Shown: positions 16,514 through 54,401 of the stretch, piece after piece
How the letters are laid out: the number at the start of each line of letters is the position of its first letter
How positions within the stretch are numbered: the first letter of the stretch is position 1
Origin: Pseudooceanicola atlanticus
Lineage (GTDB): Bacteria; Pseudomonadota; Alphaproteobacteria; Rhodobacterales; Rhodobacteraceae
Direction: 5' to 3'
NCBI RefSeq assembly: GCF_000768315.1
Contig: NZ_AQQX01000001.1
Coordinates: 248,001 to 312,000 of the forward strand
Length of the DNA: 64,000 nucleotides
Translations under genes and position numbers: made by a program
The notes under the pieces: model-generated
Databases searched by the model: none
What the model was told of the DNA's origin: nothing
Seen by the model: the letters and a program-made list of their open reading frames with translations, nothing else

Positions 16514-16568
16514 GGCCGACAAGGCACCGACGTAATACCGACGTTGTACCGACGTGTTACCGATGCGG
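16514..16568 (+). repeat. 11-bp tandem repeat array R1, upstream of leuD
   Basis: Five consecutive 11-mers: one degenerate (16514-16524), then CACCGACGTAA, TACCGACGTTG, TACCGACGTGT and TACCGATGCGG. Consensus TACCGACGTNN. The last unit ends 25 bp before the leuD ATG, so the array lies just before the ribosome site, in the leuD promoter or leader. Units run in the direction of leuD. Three further arrays occur in this window. Confidence 0.85.
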
Positions 16569-16593
16569 TTTTCCGTGGTCAGGAAGGACCAAG

Positions 16594-17199
16594 ATGGAAA
16601 AGTTCGAAAAACTCACCGGGGTGGCGGCACCGATGCCGCTGGTCAACATCGACACCGACATGATCATCCCCAAAGTGTTCCTGAAGACGATCAAGCGGTC
16701 GGGCCTGGGCGTGAACCTCTTCGACGAGATGCGCTATGATCGCCAAGGCAACGAGATCCCCGATTTCGTCCTGAACAAGCCCCAGTACCGCGAGGCGGAA
16801 ATCCTTGTCGCCGGCGACAATTTCGGCTGCGGCTCGTCCCGGGAACATGCCCCCTGGGCGATCAAGGATTTCGGCATCCGCTGCGTGATCTCCACCAGCT
16901 TCGCCGACATCTTCTACAACAACTGCTTCAAGAACGGCATCCTGCCGATCGTCCTGCCGGAAGAGCAGCGCGACATCCTGATGAAGGATGCCGAGAAGGG
17001 CTCCAATGCCCGGATCGAGGTCGACCTGGAATCCCAGACCGTCACCTCCTCCGACGGTGAGGTCTTCCATTTCGAGGTCGATCCCTTCCGCAAGCACTGC
17101 CTGCTCGAAGGGCTGGACGACATCGGTCTGACGCTGGAAAAATCCGCCTCCATCGACGCGTTCGAGGCCCAGGCGGCACAGTCCCGGCCCTGGGTCTGA
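16594..17199 (+). CDS. leuD: 3-isopropylmalate dehydratase small subunit
   Basis: 201 residues. [23 protein letters not shown] and [17 protein letters not shown] are the swivel-domain signatures of LeuD, and [19 protein letters not shown] follows as expected. It forms the heterodimer with LeuC. AGGAAGG lies 7 bp before the ATG. Its leader carries the 11-bp repeat array R1. A strong terminator follows at 17249. Confidence 0.97.
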
Positions 17200-36006: not shown

Positions 36007-36106
36007 GTGATCTCTTGGCTCTGGTTCTGGCTCTGGCGGTTGCGGGGCCGGTTACGGTGCCGGGGGCGGCGCGGTGGTCGGGGCCGGTGCGTGACCCGGT
36101 TTCGGG

Positions 36107-36128
36107 GCGTCGGTTTTCGCACCGACGC
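36107..36128. repeat. Hairpin at the edge of array R2
   Basis: GCGTCGGT-TTTCGC-ACCGACGC: an 8-bp stem whose right arm is the first repeat unit and whose left arm is an inverted copy of it. Only array R2 has such an inverted unit. Confidence 0.6.
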
Positions 36129-36163
36129 GATACCGACGTGATACCGATGTAATACCGACGTGC
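36120..36163 (+). repeat. 11-bp tandem repeat array R2
   Basis: Four units: CACCGACGCGA, TACCGACGTGA, TACCGATGTAA, TACCGACGTGC. The nearest gene with this region upstream is arfB (minus strand, 114 bp away), so units run against the gene here, unlike at leuD and dapD. Confidence 0.8.
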
Positions 36164-36220
36164 CGTTCGGTCCATTCATCCGCCCGTTTCGGGCCGGGAG
36201 TCGCAGACGGATCCGGGCAA

Positions 36221-36253
36221 AGGAAAGGCCCGTCCGATCGGATCGGACGGGCC
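36221..36253 (-). terminator. Intrinsic terminator, minus strand
   Basis: GGCCCGTCCGATC / GATCGGACGGGCC (36227-36239 with 36241-36253), a nearly loop-less 13-bp stem that would form with a short loop, followed on the minus strand by TTTCCTTT. It terminates the micro-ORF region. Confidence 0.7.
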
Positions 36254-36278
36254 CCTCGAGTCTGGGAGGTGGGGCCGG

Positions 36279-36353
36279 TTAGGCTGCCACCAATTTGGTC
36301 GTCAACACCCCAAGGGCTGCCTCAGGATGCTTCCTTCCAAACTGTTCCGACAC
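36279..36353 (-). CDS. Micro-ORF 2, 24 residues
   Basis: GTG start, GGAG 4 bp upstream, ending EAALGVLTTKLVAA. The amphipathic, alanine/leucine-rich tail does not look random. It overlaps micro-ORF 1 in the +1 frame. If the two are joined by a +1 shift, a 32-residue peptide results. No homologue is known to me. Confidence 0.3.
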   Translation of the reverse strand: MSEQFGRKHPEAALGVLTTKLVAA

Positions 36354-40314: not shown

Positions 40315-40851
40315 TCAGATGCGCTCCGGTGGCCAGGGCCGCGTATCATCGGCGGCAAAAAGCGCGGCGACCCAATCGGGCAGGTCGCGGGGATCGTCGC
40401 CCGCGCCCAGCTCCTGCCGGACGGTGTCGGTGGGCACCATCTTGCCCTTGCCGACGATCGCGGTGCGGAAGATGCCGTGATTGGCGCAGGTGCCGTCCCG
40501 GGTCCACATGCTCTGTTCGATGTAGATGAAGCGGTCGTCCCAGCCCAGAAGTCGCGATTGCATCTCGATTTTCTCGAGGTTGGTCAGGCGCTTGCGATAC
40601 CGGACGATGCTGCCCGCCACGGTCAGCCCCCACTTGTTCCTGCGCAGCGCCCGGAACAGGCCGGCGCGCATGGCAAAGGGGATGCGGCCCAGGTCGAAGA
40701 TCGAGAGCGTCCGGCCGTTGTTCAGCTCGGACATCATGTCGAGGTCCCAGGGCCAGATCCGGTGATGCGAGACATGCACGTCCCAGGTGCCGAGGGCAGG
40801 GGCGTTGCGGTACTTGATCAGCTCTTTGGCCAGGCGGATGAAAGGATACAT
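40315..40851 (-). CDS. Acyl-CoA thioesterase (4HBT-like superfamily)
   Basis: 178 residues, hotdog fold of the 4HBT_2 type: SHHRIWPWDLDMMSELNNGRTLSIFDLGRIPFAMRAG is the core with the catalytic Asp, as in the THEM6/YbgC relatives. Hydrolysis of acyl-CoA is inferred from the family only. AGGAGG lies 6 bp before the ATG. Array R3 lies about 180 bp upstream, in the same direction as this gene. Confidence 0.85.
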   Translation of the reverse strand: MYPFIRLAKELIKYRNAPALGTWDVHVSHHRIWPWDLDMMSELNNGRTLSIFDLGRIPFAMRAGLFRALRRNKWGLTVAGSIVRYRKRLTNLEKIEMQSRLLGWDDRFIYIEQSMWTRDGTCANHGIFRTAIVGKGKMVPTDTVRQELGAGDDPRDLPDWVAALFAADDTRPWPPERI

Positions 40852-41154
40852 GGCGGGCCTCCTGTGGCGGAGATCGTGCAGGGTGACGGGGACGTCAACC
40901 AGGACCCTGCGTCAGATCCCCCGGGTCCCACGCTGCGGAAAGCGGGCTGCCGGTTAACGGGGCGGATGGGCGATGGTGCGGTTGCCGCCGGGTTCTGCAC
41001 CGGGCCTTGCCAGTCGGAATTTCGGGCATCTGTACCGCGTCGGTATCACGTCGGTATTGTGTCGGTGCCTGCGGTGCTTGGTCGGGGGCGCGGGGCTTGC
41101 TCTTTGAGCGTGCCGCTCTTACCTAAGGTTCGGCCAGATAGGAGACAGACCCAG
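40852..41154. other. Divergent region with array R3
   Basis: 303 bp between the minus-strand thioesterase gene and the plus-strand yggT. It holds the 11-bp array R3 (41035-41067) and a GC-rich stretch next to it. No clear -35/-10 was recognised on either side. Confidence 0.45.
41035..41067 (-). repeat. 11-bp tandem repeat array R3
   Basis: Three clear units on the minus strand: CACCGACACAA, TACCGACGTGA, TACCGACGCGG, then a degenerate TACAGATGCCC. It sits 87 bp before the yggT ATG and 184 bp before the thioesterase ATG, between divergent genes. Confidence 0.8.
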
Positions 41155-53500: not shown

Positions 53501-54328
53501 TCAGTCGCGCAGAAGCTCGTTCACGCCGGTCTTTGAGCGGGTCTTCTCGTCCACGCGCTTCACGATGACGGCGCAGTAGAGGTTGACGCCGTTCTTCGAG
53601 GGCATGGAGCCCGAGACGACCACGGAATAGGGCGGGACCTCGCCATACATGACCTCGCCGGTTTCGCGGTCGACGATCTTGGTGGACTGACCGATATAGA
53701 CACCCATCCCCAGGACAGAGCCTTCGCGGACGATCACGCCCTCGACGACCTCGGACCGGGCACCGATGAAGCAATTGTCCTCGATGATGGTGGGGCCGGC
53801 CTGCATGGGTTCCAGCACGCCGCCGATACCGACACCGCCCGACAGGTGCACGTCCTTGCCGATCTGCGCGCAGGAGCCGACGGTGGCCCAGGTATCGACC
53901 ATCGTGCCGCTGTCGACATAGGCGCCCAGGTTCACGAAGGACGGCATCAGCACGACGCCCGGCGCGACATAGGCGGATTTGCGGACGATACAGTTCTGCA
54001 CAGCGCGGAAGCCCGCGGCCTTCCACTGGTTTTCACCCCAGCCGGCGAACTTGCTGTCCACCTTGTCCCACCAGCCGCCGCCCTGCGGGCCGCCCGACTG
54101 GATTTCCATGTCCTTCAGGCGGAAGCCCAGCAGAACCGCCTTCTTGGCCCACTGGTTCACGTGCCAGGACCCGTCCGACTGCTTCTCGGCGACGCGGAGA
54201 GACCCGCTGTCGAGCGCGTTCAGCGTGTCCTCGATCGCCTCGCGGGTTTCACCTGTCGTGGCGGGGGTGATCTGGTCGCGCGCCTCCCAGGCGGCTTCGA
54301 TCGCGGTTTCAAGCTGGGCGTTGGACAT
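53501..54328 (-). CDS. dapD: 2,3,4,5-tetrahydropyridine-2,6-dicarboxylate N-succinyltransferase
   Basis: 275 residues, the DapD length. The left-handed beta-helix (hexapeptide) domain shows in [55 protein letters not shown], and [18 protein letters not shown] continues it. It succinylates tetrahydrodipicolinate in the lysine/DAP pathway. AAGGGACC precedes the ATG, and 18 bp upstream lies the repeat array R4. Confidence 0.97.
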
Positions 54329-54346
54329 GGGCAGGGTCCCTTTTTT

Positions 54347-54401
54347 CTACGTCGGTCTTGCGTCGGTTCCACGTCGGTATGACGTCGGTGCGATATCGGG
54401 G
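54347..54401 (-). repeat. 11-bp tandem repeat array R4, upstream of dapD
   Basis: On the minus strand: a degenerate unit, then CACCGACGTCA, TACCGACGTGG, AACCGACGCAA and GACCGACGTAG. The last unit ends 18 bp before the dapD ATG. Orientation to the gene and proximity to the ribosome site are as in R1 at leuD. Confidence 0.85.

Follow-up and report, generated by a model that had tools for sequence, protein, structure and literature searches.

Dispersed repeats, multimer-binding sites built from direct repeats and an 11-bp periodicity are all known. The BIME/REP elements of enterobacteria and pseudomonads, linked to gyrase, occur as many dispersed intergenic copies in operon gaps and at 3' ends, with a species-specific sequence, and their REP units are palindromes that alternate in orientation. 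Direct 11-bp iterons are wrapped into a nucleoprotein in the ParR/parC system of plasmid R1, which has one site per plasmid beside the par operon, and the MraZ and PhoB/OmpR boxes are tandem direct repeats of about 10-11 bp. At smeA, four protomers of Streptomyces BldC sit head-to-tail on four direct repeats one turn apart (PMC5859096), and RdfS of Mesorhizobium assembles as a tetramer that places one molecule on every 10 bp; both are reported to form filaments and to distort the DNA. For the TAACTGA repeats of Beggiatoaceae, 169 intergenic sets of 2-6 copies are reported, dispersed and with a patchy occurrence among species (PMC4679880).

The arrays described here were found in a window of 64,000 nucleotides (the whole stretch of DNA analysed) from Pseudooceanicola atlanticus and were followed through its 4.94-Mb genome (G000) and related genomes. 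Like BIME/REP, they have many intergenic copies (14 of 265 arrays run into a predicted gene), but they consist of direct repeats spaced exactly 11 bp apart and lack hairpins, genera that differ in unit sometimes have arrays at the same sites, and the DNA on one side carries a phased track. They differ from parC in occupying about 80 sites on the chromosome and in having no match among plasmids, and their core separates them from the MraZ and PhoB/OmpR boxes, which are promoter sites. The targets of BldC and RdfS are likewise direct repeats one turn apart for four protomers; as far as the accessible text goes, BldC sites differ in serving as operators at promoters, in having an AATT core and in varying in repeat number, RdfS works without a consensus, and a phased track is described for neither. 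The TAACTGA repeats have a 7-bp unit that is the same in distant lineages and lie close to start codons (PMC4679880). In open-access papers, we found no description of the repeat itself, of unit rewriting at persisting sites or of a one-sided, array-locked phase.

Arrays in the window and its genome

A de novo scan for periods 7-16 returns exactly four period-11 intergenic segments in the window, R1 to R4 (Table 1), besides one intergenic segment at period 12 and one at period 15. The four arrays that the first-pass annotation had listed in the 64 kb are thereby confirmed, all with a period of exactly 11 and with units of ACCGAYGY plus three bases. Their unit numbers, given as 3 to 5, needed revision: R1, reported as five units at 16514-16568, is a real array of four units preceded by a degenerate fifth at 16515, and R3 and R4 have four units each instead of three and five. 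The claim that all arrays are intergenic and upstream of genes describes the geometry of these four, except that R2, 114 nt from its RF-1-domain neighbor, is oriented opposite to that gene, and it is untrue genome-wide.

Table 1. Arrays of the window and their expected phased tracks; the tracks are projected from an aggregate of 264 arrays, and a single copy cannot show phase.
Feature	Coordinates	Strand	Description
R1 array	16526..16566	+	four 11-bp units, between leuC and leuD, 27 nt before leuD
R1 degenerate extra unit GCCGACAAGGC	16515-16525	+	
R2 array	36121..36161	+	four units; Vut_1-family gene (3' side) / RF-1-domain gene (5' side)
R3 array	41026..41066	-	four units, last degenerate; divergent gap, thioesterase-like gene / YGGT gene
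R4 array	54349..54389	-	four units; divergent gap, 20 nt before dapD-like gene (THDPS_N_2)
R1 expected phased track	16567..16746	+	last-unit start to ~+187, would enter leuD
R2 expected phased track	36162..36341	+	
R3 expected phased track	40846..41025	-	contains the window's only GTTAAC
R4 expected phased track	54169..54348	-	would enter dapD-like gene

The leuC and leuD genes flanking R1 match Pfam Aconitase and Aconitase_C. Comparison of leuC-leuD regions within the genus shows R1 in G000 alone, plus a degenerate remnant in G015; these spacers are highly diverged among the 21 same-genus genomes in which filled and empty sites were compared with target duplication in mind. The R2 site is common to two other same-genus genomes and degenerate in one of them. 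A G-rich degenerate 12/18-bp repeat (36037-36108) lies directly to the left of R2. In G010, a near relative of the array-bearing G016, the R2 site (L036) carries a decayed array with an interrupted lattice, and that genome is otherwise almost devoid of arrays, which would fit a recent loss of the system.

Allowing up to 2 mismatches, the pattern ACCGACGTN3ACCGACGT has 210 matches in G000, against 2 for the reversed control pattern, and these correspond to at least 80 distinct arrays. The number of units in the 80 arrays listed is four in 56, five in 21 (the fifth being mostly degenerate) and three in 3. Four is therefore the usual number, which speaks against the variable-number tandem repeat suggested at first. 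When 79 arrays are aligned on their first unit, A-C-C-G-A is nearly invariant in each unit, with an information content near 2 bits; ahead of the four units stands a weak half-unit whose last letters are GC, and A/T-rich steps come next at alignment positions 45-46 and 54-57. The flanks of copies within G000 are not alike beyond the motif. No hairpin was seen in R1-R4 (z from 0.05 to 0.31), and two further arrays scored z -3.06 and -0.18. A nucleoid-occlusion role of the Noc/SlmA type, with exclusion from the terminus, was considered and rejected: a 1.9-Mb stretch without arrays in the closed genome G015 was filled when a relaxed pattern was used (100 of 135 places listed).

A one-sided A/T phase

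The A/T content to the right of the arrays is phase-locked to them with a period of 11.2-11.4 bp (best period 11.4) over about 175 bp. On the right, each 44-bp window between +11 and +187 scores above every one of 300 jittered controls (n=258-264), and the phase fades from +165 on (p 0.11, then 0.35). It holds in G000 alone (n=77, above 400/400 controls) as well as in the remaining 176 arrays, and it persists where the sequence is coding from +50, at gene starts (n=40) and at gene ends (n=63), each above 400/400. Single small sets give p values of 0 to 0.0175 and periods of 10.8 to 12.0. The left side of the main set is weaker, with about half the right-hand amplitude (p=0.007 for -77 to -33; above 300/300 for -99 to -55). 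The control sets, 588 isolated units (p=0.43) and 1262 gene starts (p=0.14), show no phase.

Arrays built of other units behave in the same one-sided manner. With 29 such arrays, the right windows give p values of 0 to 0.033 out to +132 and 0.09-0.13 thereafter, and the left windows show no phase (p 0.47-0.86). In a test set beforehand on 30 arrays of G215, the right side is significant (p=0.0045; 0.05-0.07 in two shorter right windows) and the left is not (p=0.60), and removal of four re-used copies leaves p=0.001 on the right (n=24) and p=0.64 on the left (n=26). Further units to the right of the array were considered as a source of the signal and rejected: the unit score there is periodic (p<1/400), yet its mean in register is no higher than off register. 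The right-hand periodicity therefore reflects A/T content and not additional units.

An A/T periodicity of about 11 bp, the period seen here, is common in bacterial genomes generally and extends into coding sequence (PMC1242344, PMC4132750). Wrapping is therefore one reading of the period, and the unusual part is the phase lock: here the periodicity is tied in phase to one particular sequence and is found for the most part on a single side.

Fixed distances also separate the ACCGACG arrays from GTTAA or TTAAC, which accompany 85 of 263 arrays on the left, 82 on the right and 50 on both sides. Counted from the last unit, the right TTAA falls at +21, +32 or +43, and GANTC (GATTC/GAATC) follows in 46 of 76 right arms. 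Elsewhere GTTAAC is rare, with none in 120 kb of G009 and one in 100 kb of G002. The only GTTAAC of the window (40953-40958) stands in 11-bp register with R3, which could be chance. GTTAAC lies within 75 bp of only 2 of 34 other-unit arrays, yet is present at several G215 copies. None of the 43 arrays lying up to 60 nt before a gene start has both arms.

Distribution, shared sites and gene context

Among 100 relatives, 8 have any match to the ACCGACG pattern and 4 have ten or more; the array-rich genomes (at least 10 matches) are G000, G001, G015 and G016, all of the same genus, that is 4 of 22 same-genus genomes. A scan with one genome per species yields at least 108 matching stretches, and the 80 titled matches listed all belong to Rhodobacterales or unclassified relatives; the type strains Shimia haliotis and Pseudooceanicola antarcticus carry arrays. 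Out of 2.9 million viral contigs, one matches, and the consensus array matched no plasmid or phage record. All 53 matches in Pseudohalocynthiibacter (G100) are on the chromosome record.

A bare CCGA repeated four times at an 11-bp period occurs in 32 of 246 genomes (roughly one for each genus in the family) and reaches ten or more matches in 11 of them, several with other letters around CCGA. The consensus unit is TACCGACGYNR in G000 and genomes of its type, GTCCGAYRRRA in G218, KTCCGATRRNR in G215, GYCCGACRCNK in G056 and AGAGYTAYGRA in G022. In the copies read, the arrays of other units also have a period of exactly 11 bp and three to five units. The G022 unit was deduced from the leader of lpdA alone and then found 42 times in that genome, against 1 match for the control. 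Since G022 lacks CCGA arrays and has another unit, absence of a pattern means absence of that pattern only. Outside masked stretches, no hidden period-11 unit turned up in 240 kb of the array-free relatives G009 and G002.

In G215 the units follow a set order along the array, RAAAG first, AGAAT next and GGTTT or GGAAT after that, which makes the four positions non-equivalent. G253 has 34 matches to the reversed control (AGCC four times at 11 bp), perhaps another unit or one long repeat, and contigs C98 and C194 of G186 contain long perfect 11-bp tandem runs (CCGATGCTGGC and CCGACTGCGGC), unlike the four-unit arrays.

Certain sites are shared by genomes with different units. Upstream of lpdA, an array is present in 13 of 30 genomes (twelve judged by eye, G215 by coordinates), with at least three kinds of unit: the TACCGACG type in G000, G001, G015, G018, G100, G257 and G300, other CCGA types in G126, G180, G215, G218 and G227, and the AGAGYTAYGRA type in G022. 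The remaining 17 lpdA leaders, some from array-rich genomes, have no array. The rpoA-rplQ gap holds arrays of two unit kinds in 5 of 24 parsed genomes plus G000. Three of the four arrays sampled in G218 occupy loci where other genomes have ACCGACG arrays, namely lpdA, rpoA-rplQ and acetyltransferase-chorismate mutase. Of 13 arrays in G022, both flanks place 3 at shared loci and a single flank places 2 others there. The gene names at these loci (lpdA, rpoA, rplQ, acetyltransferase, chorismate mutase) are those we take the sequences to represent. Most array sites are not common to the genomes compared: sampled arrays fall on G000 array loci in 5 of 20 cases for G016 and in at most 1-2 of 20 for G001. 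The picture is one of long-lived sites with high turnover. The arrays are thus neither confined to one strain nor randomly placed, some sites being shared between genera; yet 3' regions are common among their positions.

The gene context was examined for 265 distinct arrays from several species, with genes called by our own codon-usage script and not by a standard caller. Apart from those overlapping a gene, 24 arrays were too near a contig or locus end, and 227 could be placed between two genes. Their orientation is with both flanking genes in 82 cases and against them in 60 (142 co-directional gaps), and 58 lie in convergent and 27 in divergent gaps. The 817 background gaps of at least 80 bp at the same loci comprise 466 co-directional, 205 divergent and 146 convergent gaps. 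Convergent gaps are therefore preferred and divergent gaps avoided, and neither a promoter-specific upstream element nor the promoter-like role first suggested is upheld. The nearest gene is closer on the right of the array than on the left, both in G000 (medians 48.5 vs 113, p=0.004) and in the other genomes (68 vs 125, p=2e-7). Among arrays with a gene no more than 60 nt from their right side, 69 face a 3' end there and 43 a 5' end. RNA from the array would therefore often be antisense there, and the proposal of a 5' UTR element does not agree with these positions. The gene lists examined reveal no common function among array-adjacent genes. The gene about 91 nt after the L256 array, which we take to be lexA, is the only regulator in the G000 list with an array at its 5' side.

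A proposed wrapped anchor and its alternatives

We give about even chances to a reading in which the arrays are head-to-tail sites for a lineage-evolving protein and anchor a one-sided, wrapped structure of about 200 bp. This builds on the suggestion, made from the window, of helically phased sites for a multimeric factor, with which the exact 11-bp lattice, the four units and the phase-locked A/T content beyond the array agree. Its head would be the 44-bp array, with four direct-repeat half-sites, one per helical turn, and we infer that a sequence-specific DNA-binding protein occupies it as a cooperative head-to-tail multimer. From this anchor, about 175 bp to the right would be wrapped or bent along A/T-rich steps spaced 11.2-11.4 bp in the register of the array, in a track that would often run into the start or end of the neighboring gene. 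A period above 10.5 bp suits right-handed wrapping. It is this period, the head-to-tail direct repeats of BldC and RdfS and the BIME-like positions that lead us to the proposal. The specificity of the protein would drift between lineages and the arrays of a genome would drift along with it, so that the unit would be rewritten everywhere while some sites stay. In this view the element would mark operons and gene ends topologically or architecturally, like the BIMEs of E. coli, more than it would switch promoters. What the computation establishes is the arrays, their dispersal, their constant period and unit number, the bias in gene context, the sharing of sites by different units and the one-sided phase lock; protein binding, multimerization, wrapping and the role are proposed to explain these.

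The arrays might instead be strong sites for gyrase or another topoisomerase, array and track being the wrapped DNA itself without a dedicated protein, as in BIME-2 or the Mu strong gyrase site. In E. coli, gyrase sites are 130 bp long, contain two 47-bp regions in which G/C content is phased, and show enrichment in BIME-2, one such site lying between suc genes (PMC6379681). The arrays are likewise phased, are 44 bp long, lie between operon genes and at gene ends, and precede lpdA at one shared site, although the lpdA/suc coincidence is anecdotal. We consider this reading unlikely: each genome conserves its unit down to single letters and the lineages have different units, a pattern not to be expected from a conserved enzyme that recognizes a degenerate motif. 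In place of symmetric 47-bp arms within about 130 bp, the track is longer than 130 bp and one-sided, with a phase that lies mainly on the right and reaches about +187.

Unlikely, too, is that the arrays are ordinary transcription-factor operators, or roadblocks by which transcription is stopped or reduced within operons and at the ends of genes. Head-to-tail binding on direct repeats one turn apart is known from BldC (PMC5859096), 19 of the 22 G000 rows with an array within 50 nt of a gene start are co-oriented, and the gene-end and convergent positions fit a roadblock. For operators, however, one would not expect enrichment in convergent and depletion in divergent gaps or, in the gene lists examined, neighbors without common function, and 175 bp of phased coding DNA is not needed.

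A selfish or mobile REP-like family, kept uniform within each genome by copying and differing in unit through drift of the copied family, is improbable. It would account for the species-specific consensus, the patchy occurrence within the genus, the intergenic bias and the high turnover of sites, and REP families are reported to co-vary with their transposase (PMC2817692). Against it stand the different units at the same locus, the dissimilar flanks, a structural phase that enters coding sequence, and the absence of hairpins in R1-R4, although one of the two other arrays did score about -3.1. Least probable by far is a leader or trailer element acting at the RNA level and bound by a protein or sRNA: R1, R4 and the lpdA-leader arrays do lie just before the ribosome-binding region, and the TAACTGA direct repeats near start codons have been so read in Beggiatoaceae (PMC4679880), but the arrays occur in both orientations and at 3' ends, R1-R4 lack structure, and the sole Rfam match in the window is a tRNA.

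Returning to the wrapped anchor, we suggest, more tentatively, that the arrays are a bacterial positioning code, in which a lineage-specific protein may read the four-turn array and organize about 175 bp in one direction into a right-handed wrapped particle or a polar filament, strongly enough for coding DNA downstream to carry the phase. Co-evolution of protein and arrays throughout the family would rewrite the code while some sites persist. If true, this would be a genome-scale case of DNA-binding specificity and dispersed sites changing together, with the old sites still visible, and the purpose of the bacterial 11-bp A/T periodicity would become testable, its phase being tied to a defined anchor.
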